64,000 bases of DNA from the NCBI RefSeq assembly GCF_003076475.1, contig NZ_CP020919.1, forward strand, positions 1,550,001 to 1,614,000, given 5' to 3'. The position numbers were made by a program, and so were the translations under genes. Under the pieces are notes generated by a model that searched no databases, was not told the origin of the DNA, and saw only the letters and a program-made list of their open reading frames with translations. This DNA comes from Flavobacterium kingsejongi (lineage in GTDB: Bacteria > Bacteroidota > Bacteroidia > Flavobacteriales > Flavobacteriaceae). This document shows positions 57,459 to 64,000 of the stretch, piece by piece. Numbering within the stretch: position 1 is the stretch's first letter; every line of letters starts with the position of its first letter.

Positions 57459-57836
57459 TTATTTTTTCAGGAGTGCAATTATTTCCTCTTTTTCTTTGAG
57501 CCGCCCTTCATAAAGTTGCTTTTGCTTTTTTAGTTTTCCCTGAAGTTCTGTAATCCGGAATTCATATTGTTCAAATAGTTTTTGAAGTACGCCGGCATAA
57601 TGAATTGCATTTTCAGGATCGTTAATCACGCTTGCATTTCCCGTTTCATTAAATAATTCGGAAACAGGCGTGTTGAGTAGTTTCGACAATATGAGAATTT
57701 CTTCTGGGGTAAATTTCGTTTCGCCTCGTTCTCTGCGGCTGTATTGTGATTGATTCAGCTCTAAATTAAAGGCAATTGCTTCCTGGGAAATCTTCTTGGT
57801 TTCCCGTATCGATTTAATTCGCTGGTGTAATTTCAT
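57459..57836 (-). CDS. XRE family regulator with coiled-coil tail
   Basis: A 125-residue regulator: helix-turn-helix in residues 5-60 (IRETKKISQEAIAFNLELNQSQYSRRERGE) and a C-terminal helical tail (about 85-125) rich in Glu, Lys and Leu (LQGKLKKQKQLYEGRLKEKEE), likely a dimerising coiled coil. It is divergent from the VKOR fusion gene, with a 9-9-9 inverted repeat in the spacer, so it may control the peptide cluster. Confidence 0.85.
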   Translation of the reverse strand: MKLHQRIKSIRETKKISQEAIAFNLELNQSQYSRRERGETKFTPEEILILSKLLNTPVSELFNETGNASVINDPENAIHYAGVLQKLFEQYEFRITELQGKLKKQKQLYEGRLKEKEEIIALLKK

Positions 57837-57893
57837 TATGTTAAAGTTAAGTAGGTTTGGGGGATTATGTGTAATTCACATGTTATATGCTAA

Positions 57894-57920
57894 AATAGTA
57901 TTTAATAAGCGAATACTATT
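57894..57920. promoter_or_regulatory. Inverted repeat AATAGTATT-N9-AATACTATT, candidate operator
   Basis: Two perfect 9-base arms separated by 9 bases, in the 115-base gap between the divergent XRE regulator and the VKOR fusion. Position and symmetry suit binding by the regulator. AT-rich background makes a chance match less improbable than the length alone suggests. Confidence 0.5.
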
Positions 57921-57951
57921 GGATATATTTGAAAAAAACATATTTTAAACT

Positions 57952-59529
57952 GTGATTGGAATTATTAAAAAATTTTTAGCATTAAATCAATACTCACAAT
58001 TCGTCCCTGAATTTGAGAGTCTCGTTTTGTCCCATCCCAATTATCCCAGCATTTTTGCGATTACGGATACTCTGGATATGCTTTCTATAGAAAATGCTGC
58101 CGTCAAAGTATCCAAAGAGCAACTGAACGATCTTCCGGAGACTTTTTTGGCAGTGTATGATAATCAAATCACTTTGGTTTTAAAAAAAGAGACCTTACGT
58201 GTTGAAACCGAAAAGGGAGAGAATATTGTGTTAACTCCGGAGGTATTCCAACAAAAATGGGATGGCATCATCATAGCCATTGAACCCGGAGTAGTGATAG
58301 TGCAAAAAAAGGCAAAAATGCAATTCGGCTTCTTAAGATATGTGCTGCCTTTTGTTTTGTTAGTATTAGTTTCTTTTTGGTATACCAGCTATGATTTGAC
58401 CGCTGTATTGTTTTTGATCACAGTAACTCTGGGAGTAATAGCAAGTGTTTTTATCCTGCAGGAGAAATTAGGAATGCAAAATGAGATCGTGTCAAAATTT
58501 TGTACTTCCAATGCCGCAACTTCCTGTGATTCTGTTATAAATTCAAATAAGAGCATTATTACAAAATGGATTGATTTTTCAGACTTACCGATTCTTTTTT
58601 TTAGCAGTAGTTTATTGGCAATTTTAATCCAGCCTTTGTATTCCGTTTTAGCCATTGGTAGTGTGGGTTTGCTTTCGCTTCCTGTAGTGGCCTATTCCAT
58701 AGTGCTTCAAAAGACACAGTTAAAAAAATGGTGCCTGATGTGCCTGTTTGTTTCCGGTATATTGGTGATTCAAAGTATTCTTTTTGTAGGGCTAAGTAGG
58801 GTATTTACAACGGAAGCTTTTCTATCAGGGGGTGTACTCTATTTAAGTGCATTAGTGCTTGTCACTACAGTATGGTTTGCGATAAAACCTGTAATAATTG
58901 AAAAAATTGAGGCACAAAAGGGATTAAATGAATTGAAAAAATTCAAGCGTAACTATGGGCTGTTTAATTTTTTATCAAAAGCTATTTCCTCACCGGACGG
59001 ATTGAGCAAGTTAAAAGGAATTTCTTTGGGGAACGACCTCGCTGCTGTAAGGTTAACTCTCATTGTGAGCCCCGGCTGTGGACATTGTCATAAAGCAGTA
59101 GAAGAAGGACTGGAACTGATTGCTAAATATCCTGAAAAAATAGGATTGGCAATACTATTTAATGTGAATCCTGAAAATGAAGAGAATCCGTATACTGCCA
59201 TCGTGCGGGAACTATTAGCGATTAATGATGTTGAGTATAGTAGGGTGAAAGAAGCACTCAAGGATTGGCATATTAAAAAAATGACTATGGAGCAGTGGAA
59301 AAAGAAGTGGGGGAATCATACGGCCACAATGCAGGTTACCCAACAAATTTACCTGCAATACCAATGGTGTGTAAAAAATGACTTCAATTACACTCCGGTG
59401 AAAATTATCAATAACCGCCTGTTTCCAAATGAATATGATATTTCGGAATTGAAATATTTCCTGAATGATTTTTCAGAAGCAGCCGATTTTTCGGAAGTAG
59501 AGGTAATGACGGAAGTGGAAACGGTTTAA
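57952..59529 (+). CDS. C39-like/VKOR/thioredoxin fusion protein, disulfide-forming enzyme
   Basis: A 525-residue membrane protein, start GTG at 57952. Residues 1-110 resemble a C39 peptidase fold (SHPNYPSIFAITDTLDML) but lack the catalytic Cys, so are probably inactive. Then come membrane helices and a VKOR domain with loop cysteines C184 and C192 and active-site C261-x2-C264 (KKWCLMC), which reduces quinone while oxidising a partner. The C-terminal thioredoxin-like domain has CGHC at 376-379. It would form disulfides in exported peptides. It heads the cluster of six Cys-rich precursors, so is likely their oxidase. Confidence 0.88.
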   Translation: MIGIIKKFLALNQYSQFVPEFESLVLSHPNYPSIFAITDTLDMLSIENAAVKVSKEQLNDLPETFLAVYDNQITLVLKKETLRVETEKGENIVLTPEVFQQKWDGIIIAIEPGVVIVQKKAKMQFGFLRYVLPFVLLVLVSFWYTSYDLTAVLFLITVTLGVIASVFILQEKLGMQNEIVSKFCTSNAATSCDSVINSNKSIITKWIDFSDLPILFFSSSLLAILIQPLYSVLAIGSVGLLSLPVVAYSIVLQKTQLKKWCLMCLFVSGILVIQSILFVGLSRVFTTEAFLSGGVLYLSALVLVTTVWFAIKPVIIEKIEAQKGLNELKKFKRNYGLFNFLSKAISSPDGLSKLKGISLGNDLAAVRLTLIVSPGCGHCHKAVEEGLELIAKYPEKIGLAILFNVNPENEENPYTAIVRELLAINDVEYSRVKEALKDWHIKKMTMEQWKKKWGNHTATMQVTQQIYLQYQWCVKNDFNYTPVKIINNRLFPNEYDISELKYFLNDFSEAADFSEVEVMTEVETV

Positions 59530-59574
59530 AAGGAGAGGGTGTAATCACCTGGAAAATACTGTGAAATGATTGAA

Positions 59575-59600
59575 GCCCAACAATCAATAAAGGATTGGGC
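59575..59600 (+). other. Intercistronic hairpin before the first precursor
   Basis: CAATC (59581-59585) pairs with GATTG (59593-59597) and GCC (59575-59577) with GGC (59598-59600), with CAA bulged, followed by GATTTTAAAA. It could be a weak attenuator or RNA-processing stem between the VKOR gene and the peptides. Confidence 0.35.
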
Positions 59601-59625
59601 GATTTTAAAACCTAAACTGTATACT

Positions 59626-59817
59626 ATGTTACAAAATATTTTAAATCTCAAAGGAGCAACATTACTCAGCGCTACGGAGCAAAAAACAATCGCAGGTGGA
59701 CGCTTGATCTGTTTTGATTTTCTTGCCGGAGTGTGCCGGCAAATTTCCAAAGGCTGTGGTGAAGTAGCATGCCAGCCTCCAGCGCCGTGTTGTATTATTG
59801 ATATTGATCCTGTTTAA
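59626..59817 (+). CDS. Double-glycine precursor peptide 1
   Basis: A 63-residue precursor. The leader (1-25, ending IAGG) shows the C39 pattern: Leu at -12, Glu at -8, Ile at -4, GG at -2/-1. The predicted core of 38 residues has six cysteines, in the pattern C-x7-C-x6-C-x4-C then CC near the end (PAPCCIID). The start is the ATG at 59626, which gives the same MLxNIL beginning as the other precursors; an upstream ATG adds 20 residues overlapping a hairpin. Probably secreted by the C39 exporter at 61115. Confidence 0.8.
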   Translation: MLQNILNLKGATLLSATEQKTIAGGRLICFDFLAGVCRQISKGCGEVACQPPAPCCIIDIDPV

Positions 59818-59859
59818 TAATAATTCAAATAAATTATAACCCTTAAATCATTAATTACC

Positions 59860-60045
59860 ATGTTAAAAAACATTTTGAAACTAAAAGGCGCAGCCATGCT
59901 AAGTGCAACGGAGCAGAAAATGGTCGTTGGCGGCCGATTGATTTGTATTAGACCTGACACTGGACAATGCAAATACATTTCGAAGTTTTGTGGCGAAACA
60001 ATTTGCCAGCCAGGAGGCGGAGGTATTATCGATCCTGTTGAATAA
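59860..60045 (+). CDS. Double-glycine precursor peptide 2
   Basis: A 61-residue precursor: leader of 25 residues ending VVGG (Leu -12, Glu -8, Val -4). The core of 36 residues has four cysteines, C-x7-C-x6-C-x4-C, and a Gly-rich end (PGGGGIIDPVE). It is the closest relative of peptide 1, with similar core start RLIC. Confidence 0.82.
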   Translation: MLKNILKLKGAAMLSATEQKMVVGGRLICIRPDTGQCKYISKFCGETICQPGGGGIIDPVE

Positions 60046-60087
60046 CAGGGGCTTTCTAAATAATTTTAATCCTGAATCTTTATACCG

Positions 60088-60285
60088 ATGTTAAAAAATA
60101 TTTTAAAATTAAACGGTACTCAACAATTGTCTAAAACGGAGCAAAAGTCGATCAATGGTGGAAAGAAACAATGCAAGGAAGTACCTCCATATGATCCCGA
60201 GAATCCTGACGCAGGCGCTGTATGCGTAGATCATGGCCCTCAATGTGCTGAAGTGGATTGTAGATTTCCCATTATAGAATTATAA
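60088..60285 (+). CDS. Double-glycine precursor peptide 3
   Basis: A 65-residue precursor: 25-residue leader ending INGG (Leu -12, Glu -8, Ile -4) and a 40-residue core beginning KKQC with four cysteines, C-x16-C-x6-C-x4-C, a PYDPENP segment and a CRFPIIEL-type end. First of three near-identical copies spaced about 232-238 bases apart. Confidence 0.85.
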   Translation: MLKNILKLNGTQQLSKTEQKSINGGKKQCKEVPPYDPENPDAGAVCVDHGPQCAEVDCRFPIIEL

Positions 60286-60319
60286 ATCATTTCGTAATTT
60301 TTTAAAACCCCAAATAGTT

Positions 60320-60520
60320 ATGTTAAAGAACATTTTAAAATTAGAAGGTGCTCAACAATTATCTAAAACGGGGCAAAAGTCAATCAATGGTGGGAAAAAG
60401 CAATGTAGACAAGCACTTCCTTACGATCCTGAAAATCCTGGATCAGGAGGGTATGCCTGTGTAGAATATGGACCTCAATGTGCTGAAGCAATTTGCAGAT
60501 TTCCTGGTATAGAATTATAA
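60320..60520 (+). CDS. Double-glycine precursor peptide 4 (Gly at leader -8)
   Basis: A 66-residue precursor, a copy of peptide 3. The 41-residue core has C-x17-C-x6-C-x4-C. The conserved leader Glu at -8 is Gly here (LSKTGQKSINGG, codon GGG against GAG), which may alter recognition by the C39 peptidase. Otherwise the leader is unchanged. Confidence 0.83.
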   Translation: MLKNILKLEGAQQLSKTGQKSINGGKKQCRQALPYDPENPGSGGYACVEYGPQCAEAICRFPGIEL

Positions 60521-60553
60521 ATCATTTCGAAATTTTTTAAAACCCCAATATCT

Positions 60554-60754
60554 ATGTTAAAGAATATTTTAAAATTAAGTGGTGCTCAACAGTTATCTAA
60601 AACGGAGCAAAAGTCAATCAATGGTGGAAAGAAACAATGCAAACAATCAATTCCTTATGATCCTCAGAATCCTCCTGGTACAGGTAATGAGTGCAAAGAA
60701 TTCGGGCCTCAATGTGCCGAAGCAGATTGTAGATTTCCTCCCTTAGAATTCTAA
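60554..60754 (+). CDS. Double-glycine precursor peptide 5
   Basis: A 66-residue precursor, third copy of the peptide 3 type, with intact leader (LSKTEQKSINGG) and a 41-residue core, C-x17-C-x6-C-x4-C, with PYDPQNPPGTGN in the first loop. The variable first loop contrasts with the conserved GPQCAE and CRFP ends. Confidence 0.85.
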   Translation: MLKNILKLSGAQQLSKTEQKSINGGKKQCKQSIPYDPQNPPGTGNECKEFGPQCAEADCRFPPLEF

Positions 60755-60791
60755 ATCATTTCGTAATTTTTAAACCTTTAAAAACAGTATC

Positions 60792-61010
60792 ATGTTAAAA
60801 AAAATTTTAGATTTAGAACAAGTGCATTCTTTAACTAAAGAAGAGCAAAAAACAATTAACGGAAGTGCGCCAGTAGGCTGTATGAATCCTAATCTTATTG
60901 GGATAGATCCAGATGGAGGGTCTCCCAGTATCTGTAATGATGGCTATTATTACCAAACTCAGATTAAAAAATGCTGCCCAAGAGGTGGTGGTGGTCCGAT
61001 TCAGGTATAA
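60792..61010 (+). CDS. Precursor peptide 6 (GS leader, divergent core)
   Basis: A 72-residue precursor with a 25-residue leader ending INGS, the -1 residue being Ser; C39 peptidases accept GS less often than GG or GA. The 47-residue core has four cysteines with a different spacing, including CC near the end (KKCCPRGGGG), and no C-x6-C-x4-C. It lies last in the array, before the exporter. Confidence 0.72.
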   Translation: MLKKILDLEQVHSLTKEEQKTINGSAPVGCMNPNLIGIDPDGGSPSICNDGYYYQTQIKKCCPRGGGGPIQV

Positions 61011-61044
61011 AAATAGTTTGAATCTGAACTGGTAGATATTTGAT

Positions 61045-61088
61045 AAAAAAAATAGAGAAAATGTTTTATTTTCTCTATTTTTGATTTT
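61045..61088 (+). terminator. AT-rich hairpin between precursors and exporter
   Basis: A 13-bp perfect stem (61050-61062 with 61068-61080), loop of five, followed by a T-containing run. It may stop most transcripts after the precursors, giving excess peptides over exporter. Confidence 0.65.
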
Positions 61089-61114
61089 ATAACCTACATA
61101 AATAAAACGTTTTT

Positions 61115-63301
61115 TTGAAAAAATTTCCGAATTATATACAGACCGACAATAAAGATTGTGGGCCTACCTGTTTGAAGATAATAGCAAGGCATTATGGGAA
61201 ATCTATCAATATACAGGATTTAAGAGATTTTAGTGAAACTACCCGTGAAGGAAGTAATTTGTTATTCCTTAGCGATGCTGCCGAAAAAATAGGATTCCGC
61301 ACCTTGGGTGTAAAACTGAATCTGGAACGACTGGAAGAAGCCCCGCTTCCTTGTGTGTTGCATTGGAATAAAGATCATTATGTCGTATTGTACAATATAA
61401 AAAAAGGCAAATACTATGTTTCAGATCCTGGATTTGGCCTTATTACCTATACTAAGGAAGAATTTATAAAATTCTGGATTGGAAATAATGCGGATGAAAC
61501 TACGCAGGAAGGAATTGCTTTACTGATGGAAGCCTCTCCAAAGTTTTACCAAACAGAATTTAATAAGGATAAAAAAATCGGCTTCGGTTTCCTTTTTCAA
61601 TATATCTATCCCTATAAATCATTTATCATTCAATTGAGTATCGGATTGTTAGCGAGCAGTTTGCTGCAGCTGATATTTCCTTTCCTTACTCAGAGTATTG
61701 TGGATGTTGGGATACAAAATCAGAATCTGCATTTTATTTATCTGGTACTTTTTGCGCAACTTTTCCTGTTCTTTGGAAAAACGGGACTGGAACTTATACG
61801 GAGCTGGATATTGCTGCATTTGTCTACACGGATCAATATTTCATTGATATCTGATTTTTTTATCAAATTGATGAACCTTCCAATTTCATTTTTTGATGTC
61901 CGTATGACTGGTGACATTATGCAGCGTATCAACGACCATCACAGGATCGAACGCATATTGACTACATCATCACTTAATGTTTTGTTTTCGGTAATCAATA
62001 TGTTTATAATGGGAGGTGTTTTGGCCTATTATAATGTCCAGATATTCTTTGTGTTTTTTATAGGCAGTGCGCTGTACTTCGGATGGATTATTCTCTTTTT
62101 GAAAAGACGGGAAGAACTGGATTACAAACGTTTCTCTGAAGTAAGCCAGGAACAGAGTAAGGTCATTGAGTTGATTAATGGGATGCAGGAAATTAAACTC
62201 CACAATGCAGAAAAACAAAAACGATGGGGTTGGGAATATGTGCAGGCACGATTATTCCGCATTTCTATAAAAGGGCTGATATTGGAGCAGACACAAACAG
62301 TCGGTTCTAATTTTATCAATGAGCTTAAAAATATCATTATTGTCTTTTTGTCTGCTAAGTTGGTAATCGATGGTGAAATTACATTGGGTATGATGATGGC
62401 TATCACATCTATTGTGGGAAGTTTGAATGGCCCGGTAGTGCAGCTTATAAACTTTATACGGGAAGCCCAGGATGCTAAAATATCTTTGTCAAGACTTTCC
62501 GAAATCCACGATAAAGAAGATGAAACGCAAAATGAATCTGAAACTACAAGTGATATTCCACTAAACAGTGATATTGTTATTAAAGACCTTTCTTTCCGCT
62601 ATATTGCGTCTGATATTCCGGTATTGGAGGATTTGAATCTGGTGATCCCGGCAAATAAAGTAACTGCAATTGTAGGTGTTAGTGGTAGTGGAAAAACAAC
62701 ACTTATGAAACTACTGCTGAAGTTCTATGAACCAAATAAAGGAGAAATTAAATTGGGGAATGTCAATTTTCAGAATATATCCCAAAAAACATGGCGGAGT
62801 CATATTGGTTCCGTGATGCAGGAAGGCTATATTTTTAATGATTCCATTGCTCAAAATATTGCCATTGGTGTGGATAGCATTAATAAGGAGCGCTTGCAAT
62901 ATGCTTCTGAAGTAGGAAATATAAAATCATTTATTGAAACATTGCCACTCCGGTATAATACCAAAATTGGTATGGAAGGAGTAGGAATGAGTACTGGGCA
63001 AAAACAACGGCTTTTGATTGCCCGGGCTGTATATAAAAATCCTGAAATGTTATTTTTTGATGAAGCAACCAGTGCCCTGGATGCCAATAATGAAAAAGAA
63101 ATCATGGAAAAACTGGATATCTTCTTTAAGGATAAAACCGTTGTTGTGATTGCACACCGCCTTAGTACTGTGATGAATGCAGATCAGATTGTGGTTCTGG
63201 ATAAAGGGAAGATTATAGAAAAAGGAAACCACGAAGAACTTGTGGCCCTGAAAGGGAGTTATTATCAATTGGTAAAAAACCAGTTGAGCTTAGGAAGCTA
63301 A
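61115..63301 (+). CDS. C39 peptidase-containing ABC exporter (PCAT)
   Basis: A 728-residue transporter that cuts double-glycine leaders and exports the core. The N-terminal C39 domain has catalytic C15 (KDCGPTCL), H88 and D104 (residues 1-125). A six-helix ABC membrane domain follows (about 160-440), and the ATPase carries Walker A GVSGSGKTT (521-529), signature STGQKQR (626 onwards), Walker B MLFFDEATSALD and H loop VIAHRLST. Start is TTG at 61115, matching the MKKFPNYIQTD family start. It is the natural partner of the six precursors. Confidence 0.93.
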   Translation: MKKFPNYIQTDNKDCGPTCLKIIARHYGKSINIQDLRDFSETTREGSNLLFLSDAAEKIGFRTLGVKLNLERLEEAPLPCVLHWNKDHYVVLYNIKKGKYYVSDPGFGLITYTKEEFIKFWIGNNADETTQEGIALLMEASPKFYQTEFNKDKKIGFGFLFQYIYPYKSFIIQLSIGLLASSLLQLIFPFLTQSIVDVGIQNQNLHFIYLVLFAQLFLFFGKTGLELIRSWILLHLSTRINISLISDFFIKLMNLPISFFDVRMTGDIMQRINDHHRIERILTTSSLNVLFSVINMFIMGGVLAYYNVQIFFVFFIGSALYFGWIILFLKRREELDYKRFSEVSQEQSKVIELINGMQEIKLHNAEKQKRWGWEYVQARLFRISIKGLILEQTQTVGSNFINELKNIIIVFLSAKLVIDGEITLGMMMAITSIVGSLNGPVVQLINFIREAQDAKISLSRLSEIHDKEDETQNESETTSDIPLNSDIVIKDLSFRYIASDIPVLEDLNLVIPANKVTAIVGVSGSGKTTLMKLLLKFYEPNKGEIKLGNVNFQNISQKTWRSHIGSVMQEGYIFNDSIAQNIAIGVDSINKERLQYASEVGNIKSFIETLPLRYNTKIGMEGVGMSTGQKQRLLIARAVYKNPEMLFFDEATSALDANNEKEIMEKLDIFFKDKTVVVIAHRLSTVMNADQIVVLDKGKIIEKGNHEELVALKGSYYQLVKNQLSLGS

Positions 63302-63336
63302 AATAAGGAAATCCAATTAATAGTACCGAAAAAAAA

Positions 63337-64000
63337 ATGCCTCAAAATAAAGAAATAGAACTTCGTAGTGATGAAGTTCAGGAAATTTTAACCCAGGTCC
63401 CGCATTGGATGATCCGTTGGGGGAATATGCTTATTTTAGTGATCTTACTGTCATTATTTGTGCTTTCCTGGTTTGTACGGTATCCGGATATTGTAACTAC
63501 TGAAATTACCATTACCACTCAAGTGCCTCCGCAAAAACTGATGGCCCGCACGACGGGAAGGATTCAGAAGATTTTCGTAAAAGACCGGGAAACGGTTGCC
63601 GTGAATATGCCATTGGCGATCATCGAGAATACCGCGAATTATAGCGATGTTTTTCTACTCAAAAATATCATAGATACCCTGAAGATGAATCCCCGAGCTT
63701 TTCGTTTTCCTTTTGATAAACTTCCGTTACTGGAACTCGGGGAAATTCAAACTCCTTTCACCTTATTTGAAAAGGATTATATTGCCTATACGCTGAATAA
63801 AGAGCTGCAACCTTATGAAGTAGAAGGAAAAGCACAAAGCTATGAGGTGGTTCAGCTTCGGGAGCGTTTGTCCTTATTATTGCAACAGGCGTCGATTTCA
63901 AAAGCAGAAATGGAGCTGAAGAAAAAAGAACTGGAACGGTACCATAAGCTTTTTGATAAAGGCATAATCTCACAGCAGGAATGGGAAAGTAAAAGTTTAA
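63337..64000 (+). CDS. HlyD family secretion adaptor, N-terminal part (3' end outside window)
   Basis: An open frame from the ATG at 63337 runs off the window after 221 codons. It has one N-terminal membrane helix (about residues 31-47), then a lipoyl-like half (ARTTGRIQKIFVKDRETVAVN) and the start of a coiled coil (about 165-221; SKAEMELKKKELERYHKLFDKG). It would join the C39 ABC exporter to an outer-membrane channel, 35 bases after it. The remainder and any TolC-type gene lie beyond the window. Confidence 0.85.
   Translation, partial: MPQNKEIELRSDEVQEILTQVPHWMIRWGNMLILVILLSLFVLSWFVRYPDIVTTEITITTQVPPQKLMARTTGRIQKIFVKDRETVAVNMPLAIIENTANYSDVFLLKNIIDTLKMNPRAFRFPFDKLPLLELGEIQTPFTLFEKDYIAYTLNKELQPYEVEGKAQSYEVVQLRERLSLLLQQASISKAEMELKKKELERYHKLFDKGIISQQEWESKSL

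Follow-up and report, generated by a model that had tools for sequence, protein, structure and literature searches.

How might a bacterium close disulfide bonds in peptides whose export skips the periplasm? A locus of Flavobacterium kingsejongi raises this question. It lies at the end of a 64,000-nucleotide stretch of contig NZ_CP020919.1, hereafter the window, which spans bases 1,550,001-1,614,000 of a 4.22 Mb genome assembled as a single contig; the named relatives of its central protein are from Flavobacterium. Here, what appears to be a single operon on the + strand (57952-64626, intergenic gaps of 33-104 bp) encodes a 525-residue fusion protein with C39-like, vitamin K epoxide reductase (VKOR) and DsbA-like parts, six small precursor peptides, a C39-peptidase ABC exporter and a 429-residue HlyD-type adaptor. 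A first-pass annotation had listed these genes along with a facing XRE regulator, and every element of that set is present in the sequence. It had also proposed that the peptides are oxidised and then exported by the C39 route as bacteriocins or signals; of this, the oxidation and export now look well supported by the anatomy of the operon, the cysteine parity of the peptides, their co-occurrence with the fusion and a control set of loci without the fusion. Judged from sequence, the locus is probably a factory for the dedicated oxidation and export of disulfide-rich secreted peptides.

The fusion gene (57952-59529, + strand) begins with a GTG codon. Its VKOR part matches Pfam above the cut-off (E-value (E) 7e-10) and contains the features of that family, a loop cysteine pair (C-x7-C) plus a CXXC motif inside the helical bundle. 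Cys184/Cys192, Cys261/Cys264 and Cys376/Cys379 are invariant in the fusion alignments (15/15 and 50/50 rows). The C39-like part (E 0.06) and the thioredoxin part (E 0.006) both fall below the cut-off as sequence matches; in an AlphaFold model, separate parts of the protein match C39 protease, VKOR and DsbA/ScsC structures. Three distant fusions (G512, G551 and G603) match PF03412 above the cut-off, and it is on this and the fold match that the C39 assignment of the N-terminal domain rests. The catalytic cysteine of C39 peptidases has been lost. In the window protein no cysteine precedes residue 184, and just 4 of the 84 fusion rows kept have any within the first 150 residues (1 of 85 rows, lacking the anchor motif, was dropped). 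The domain is conserved to the same degree as the redox domains. Retention of a leader-protease fold at this level of conservation suggests that the dead C39 domain captures leaders for oxidation. No NCBIfam model matches the fusion at E ≤ 1, and many of its homologues carry the NCBI name 'vitamin K epoxide reductase family protein'. The genome also holds a second fusion gene (L159:7611-10388; genome about 3,046,400-3,049,200), which is split by a 403-residue open reading frame (ORF) that reads as transposase-like; the double-glycine peptide adjoining it has 2 cysteines.

All six precursors are encoded on the + strand downstream of the fusion and share a common 25-residue leader that lacks cysteine. 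Precursor 1 (59626-59817) has a core with 6 cysteines, and its most likely start is the ATG at 59626, which gives the 25-residue leader, not 59566. The remaining five, precursors 2 (59860-60045), 3 (60088-60285), 4 (60320-60520), 5 (60554-60754) and 6 (60792-61010), have 4 cysteines each in their cores. Precursor 5 has 37 database matches at E ≤ 0.01, mostly through its leader. The first-pass annotation had described six 25-residue double-glycine leaders; number and length hold, but the last two residues of the sixth leader are GS rather than GG.

To place these peptides among their relatives, we searched species genomes with a starting pattern, confirmed 373 of 440 matches and kept the best 80 loci, referred to below as the named Flavobacterium loci. 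A leader model applied there found 317 ORFs; the analysis covers the 315 that have Gly at -2, with 216 lying on the operon strand and 99 on the opposite one. Neither the starting pattern nor the leader model made use of cysteine, and a listing of small ORFs that demanded at least 2 cysteines was kept out of the parity counts, which are not cysteine-filtered. The 216 operon-strand precursors come from 72 of the 80 loci and give 202 unique cores, in 200 of which the number of cysteines is even and non-zero. By count, 26 cores have 2 cysteines, 104 have 4 and 70 have 6, with one core each at 1 and 3. A further set of 75 database proteins yielded 72 new parsed cores (1 was already known, 2 were unparsed), and 71 of these 72 are even. 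All 209 leaders of 25 residues have Ile/Leu/Val at -4, Leu/Ile/Met at -12 and, as the selection criterion, Gly at -2, the hallmarks of a double-glycine leader. Position -1 is Gly in 165 of 209, and -7 is mostly Gln, unlike the Leu of LahT. Mean pairwise identity is 62% for leaders versus 28% for cores (2797 random pairs). The cores fall into 60 clusters at 50% identity, 58 of them even in cysteine, and display 64 distinct cysteine spacings. The richest locus (L099) has 19 precursor genes encoding 18 different cores. One cysteine order, the knottin-like C-C-CC-C-C (alignment A5), appears repeatedly among Flavobacterium-type precursors and again in one from another family (L133) that has a different leader; an AlphaFold model of the knottin-like precursor was unusable (pLDDT 59).

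The exporter (61115-63301, + strand, TTG start) has the makeup of a PCAT. It contains a C39 domain (E 4e-33) with the catalytic Cys, His and Asp motifs, joined to an ABC permease/ATPase. The His and Asp motifs are present in 75 of 75 rows kept, where retention was by the Cys motif and 1 of 76 rows was dropped. It is the one full-length C39 ABC exporter of the genome; a second C39 match lies in a short frame of 157 residues (genome 2091-2483, L212). The HlyD-type adaptor gene begins at 63337, also on the + strand, runs to the window's end at 64000 and stops beyond it at 64626. Among the operon ORFs there is no lanthionine dehydratase or cyclase, which speaks against lanthipeptides.

Fusion and peptides travel together. 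Among 398 Flavobacterium genus genomes, the fusion (E ≤ 1e-20) was found in 129 and the leader (E ≤ 0.01) in 118; 114 have both, 15 the fusion only, 4 the leader only and 265 neither; judging by the genome handles, the two draws of 398 coincide, and this count assumes so. A close exporter occurs in one of the four leader-only genomes; the other three gave no exporter match at E ≤ 1e-100. Across the phylum, 43 of 392 genomes, belonging to 13 of 178 genera, carry the fusion at E ≤ 1e-15, and its association with peptides extends across Bacteroidota families. At 40 further fusion loci, the stretch retrieved includes a related exporter at 31 (on the same strand as the fusion at 30) and a related HlyD at 29. 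With the interrupted second fusion gene left out, 39 of these remain, 29 from other genera and 10 divergent loci from the genus. Double-glycine peptides whose cysteine count is even and at least 4 are found at 30 of the 39 versus 2 of 38 C39 exporter loci without the fusion. The 38 control stretches were drawn from a longer listing, and some of their source genomes carry the fusion elsewhere; the pattern finds fewer double-glycine ORFs in them (29), which may favour the contrast, and the loci are not independent by descent. Three loci (L135, L136, L161) pair the fusion with double-glycine peptides of 6, 6 and 7 cysteines and show no related C39 exporter within about 9 kb.

On which side of the membrane would oxidation take place? 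In ordinary bacterial VKORs the N-terminus is cytoplasmic and the redox face lies outside; inverted VKORs are known in the archaeon Aeropyrum. The fusion has an extra helix ahead of its VKOR bundle (residues 126-144 in the AlphaFold model); without it, the usual VKOR topology would follow. In 85 Flavobacterium fusions, the mean number of Lys plus Arg residues is 3.1 before the first helix, 0.2 in the first turn, 4.3 in the Cys184/192 loop and 0.16 in the turn between transmembrane helices (TM) 2 and 3. It is 2.3 in the loop before Cys261, 0.13 in the TM4-5 loop and 9.1 after the last helix. The loop pattern is the same in 44 distant fusions, 8 of which failed the motif finder and stayed outside the charge count. 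Redox-side charge exceeds N-side charge in all 126 parsed fusions (85 + 36 + 5). This bias is the reverse of that in the Synechococcus VKOR and in the other VKORs parsed in a control of 30 phylum loci (5 fusions, 12 other VKORs parsed, 11 unparsed, 2 below the score limit). Of those 12, 11 have the ordinary charge direction and 1 is tied; the fair comparison is with the five that have a post-bundle segment (7 are short and have none), all ordinary, two of them near relatives. This control also accepts closer cysteine spacing and replaced an earlier version in which 5 of 6 other VKORs were ordinary. By the positive-inside rule, these charges predict a cytoplasmic location for the leader-binding domain, for the redox face of the VKOR part and for the DsbA-like domain. 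On balance we favour, by a little, a fusion oxidase that faces the cytoplasm, unlike ordinary VKORs.

A splicing together of these parts gives a possible pathway. The leader would bind the dead C39 domain, which would present the core to the DsbA-like domain (step 1). The CGHC motif of this domain would oxidise the core, with electrons passing through VKOR to quinone (step 2). Oxidation on the cytoplasmic side would thus precede export. The live C39 domain of the exporter would then cut after the double-glycine motif (step 3), and the exporter, HlyD and a presumed TolC-type protein encoded elsewhere would deliver the peptide outside with no free periplasmic stage (step 4). We put forward the complete scheme tentatively, at a little under even confidence: a leader-guided maturase whose dead C39 domain may bring double-glycine precursors to a VKOR-DsbA oxidase that is inverted and faces the cytoplasm, so that disulfides would form before type I-like export, serving an open-ended, conotoxin-like repertoire across Bacteroidota.

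Several observations weigh against this reading, and other explanations compete with it. Under normal conditions the cytoplasm is a reducing compartment. In Flavobacterium the first membrane helix has only moderate hydrophobicity (≥1.3 in 49 of 85, marginal in part of the genus). Of the four segments assigned to the inside, two (the one before the first helix and the Cys184/192 loop) hold equally many acidic residues and so have a net charge of about zero. The same system could have the ordinary topology, with its C39-like domain in the cytoplasm and the VKOR face and DsbA-like domain oxidising peptides in the periplasm, which is the arrangement of the Synechococcus VKOR-thioredoxin protein (3KP9/4NV2). 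We find this somewhat unlikely, given the strongly basic segment after the last helix compared with the near-uncharged TM2-3 and TM4-5 turns, and since HlyD-type export normally bypasses the periplasm. An hhalign comparison of the fusion N-domain with the exporter C39 domain was uninformative (probability 1.7%) and lent the C39 assignment no useful support by sequence. Coupling to peptides and exporter is imperfect too: 15 fusion-bearing genus genomes lack this leader type, 8 of the 80 named loci gave no precursor of the kind counted above (type A), and at 9 of the 40 further loci the retrieved stretch lacks a related exporter. Five odd cysteine counts at the further fusion loci also count against the main reading. 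The fusion might instead be a general disulfide oxidase that happens to sit beside peptide genes, for which speak its standing as the sole Pfam VKOR match in the window's genome and the lack of a DsbB match there. This seems very improbable to us, given the fusion's restriction to a minority of congeners, where it tracks the leader peptides, its same-strand exporters at most further loci and its leader-protease fold. Clusters such as the CC motifs of the cores might instead bind metals as thiols, but metal binding has no need of an oxidase and the near-absolute even number of cysteines fits pairing, which leaves this explanation scarcely credible.

What the oxidised peptides would do outside is a separate matter. 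For the most part the machinery keeps a constant place in the chromosome, and it is the cargo that turns over. At the named loci the exporter is present in 74 of 80 and HlyD in 71, next to an acyl-CoA dehydrogenase gene in 74 and a methyltransferase gene in 64, and some of the loci are cut by contig ends. In 160 locus pairs whose fusions are at least 90% identical, drawn from 69 of the 80 loci, 43% of precursors have no counterpart of at least 50% identity. A core repertoire that changes at a constant site would suit narrow bacteriocins, the role that we favour with fair confidence. No immunity gene was seen, and dN/dS is low when cores of one group are aligned (0.146 for the core and 0.123 for the leader; 226 pairs), pointing to purifying selection on cores; both count against that role. 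Arms-race positive selection, tried as an explanation, left no sign in these pairs (0.15 and 0.12), which were of equal length, with the same cysteine framework and core identity of at least 60%, a restriction that disfavours detection of fast change. The peptides could instead be pheromone-like signals, each lineage's private talk explaining the differences between cores. Regulator genes do adjoin the operon, an XRE type in the window and a TPR/AraC-type protein at 71 of 80 loci (one representative was domain-scanned), and cysteine-free double-glycine peptides lie just upstream on the opposite strand at 51 of 80. A signalling role is nevertheless unlikely, as precursors turn over while machinery stays, and locus maps showed no array of receptor genes to match as many as 18 cores at one locus. 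The opposite-strand peptides, possibly a signal or a second cargo, number 99 and sit 0.26-1.57 kb upstream of the fusion (98/98 placed), near the TPR/AraC-type gene. Of their 84 unique cores, 82 have no cysteine and 2 have one, an internal contrast to the even-cysteine cores, and many are Gly/Asn-rich at the end.

The surroundings of the operon complete the picture. Divergent from it lies the XRE-type helix-turn-helix regulator gene (57459-57836, - strand; HTH_3, E 3e-11), which takes the place of the TPR/AraC-type gene of relatives. By sequence reading, the left operon neighbour resembles an acyl-CoA dehydrogenase gene and the right one a TrmN6-type methyltransferase gene. These look like housekeeping genes, so the gene set seems complete, and the recurrence of exporter, HlyD and acyl-CoA dehydrogenase neighbour in relatives indicates that the arrangement is not due to chance. 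A scan for promoters and terminators gave counts close to those of shuffles. Relatives are also plasmid-borne (8 of 72,556 records), and the fusion had no match among 50,697 phage records. A variant cluster on Parabacteroides distasonis plasmid NZ_OY725766.1 (L208) combines the fusion with a 6-Cys peptide with a GS leader, a DUF4369/thioredoxin protein, a LanC-like protein, a pair of glycosyltransferases and a C39 exporter, a hint that its disulfide peptides may be glycosylated. On Emticicia oligotrophica pEMTOL02 (L210), about 3 kb separates two fusion genes, which are accompanied by TlpA-family proteins and 6-Cys small proteins, with a lantibiotic dehydratase gene nearby.

If the scheme is correct, it would explain how Bacteroidota make disulfide-rich peptides, and a cytoplasm-facing VKOR that receives its substrate through a leader tag would be an uncommon solution to the problem of where peptides that skip the periplasm acquire their disulfides. 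The cores amount to a large and little-studied store of peptides that are probably rich in cystine, and their one shared leader and enzyme may offer a tool for producing disulfide peptides.

How does this system compare with those already described? The degenerate C39-like domain of HlyB binds substrate without cleavage as part of an ABC transporter; that of the fusion lies outside one. The operon exporter resembles PCAT1 and LahT in its intact catalytic motifs, and the fusion N-domain has the same fold but is Cys-free in the window and sits on an oxidase instead of an ABC transporter. With the Synechococcus VKOR-thioredoxin protein the fusion shares the VKOR cysteine pairs and a thioredoxin-fold domain, to which it adds an N-terminal helix and a C39-like domain, with a reversed charge bias and a DsbA/ScsC-like domain. 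Among the open-licence papers listed for VKOR with double-glycine, C39 or bacteriocin, judged in part by title and opening of the abstract, we found none describing the fusion in this role, and a term search of a VKOR phylogeny paper (PMC4555120) found none of the words 'Bacteroidetes', 'peptidase' and 'fusion'. A survey of Bacteroidales ribosomally synthesized and post-translationally modified peptides (PMC10352776) does not mention VKOR or disulfides in the portion available. A commentary on IIBacFinder, in its accessible part, reports very many class II candidates, Bacteroidota included, so some precursors here may already be within that catalogue.

The first-pass annotation knew of no described family with these cores. 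This stands in that no window precursor exceeds a Pfam or NCBIfam cut-off; the best scores against NF047798 leader_Chryseo are 14.5, 14.4 and 12.0 bits, below its 23.5-bit cut-off. It fails in that NCBIfam holds narrow models for a minority of such precursors and that bacteroidetocins are a described analogue. Among 53 relatives scanned, NF047798 leader_Chryseo ('bacteriocin-like protein') and the NF047792 CCPGW model ('CCPGW family putative bacteriocin') gave 16 and 5 matches at E ≤ 0.01, and Pfam Bacteriocin_IIc matched 3 weakly. Bacteroidetocins (class IIf; Coyne et al. 2019, PMC6671954) are, in the text available, likewise double-glycine-leader peptides of Bacteroidota, with at least two cysteines, a C39 ABC exporter and a thiol oxidoreductase. 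Four genes make up each of the two characterised regions; they encode a single peptide, a five-TM protein without known function, a stand-alone thiol oxidoreductase and the exporter, and deletion of the oxidoreductase or the five-TM protein attenuates activity. The same text reports that no immunity protein was found and that Bacteroides is said to lack general disulfide machinery. Compared by leader length and gene content, the two systems differ: the leader has 25 residues here and 15-16 there, and where bacteroidetocin regions have a five-TM gene, mostly with a thiol oxidoreductase encoded separately, there is here one fused protein, of a C39-like/VKOR/DsbA kind that the available text does not mention. 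Double-glycine, C39-exported disulfide peptides are thus a known kind. What is new here is the scale and even-Cys rule of the cargo, a fused, probably leader-guided oxidase in a peptide-export role, and possibly the cytoplasmic orientation of that oxidase.

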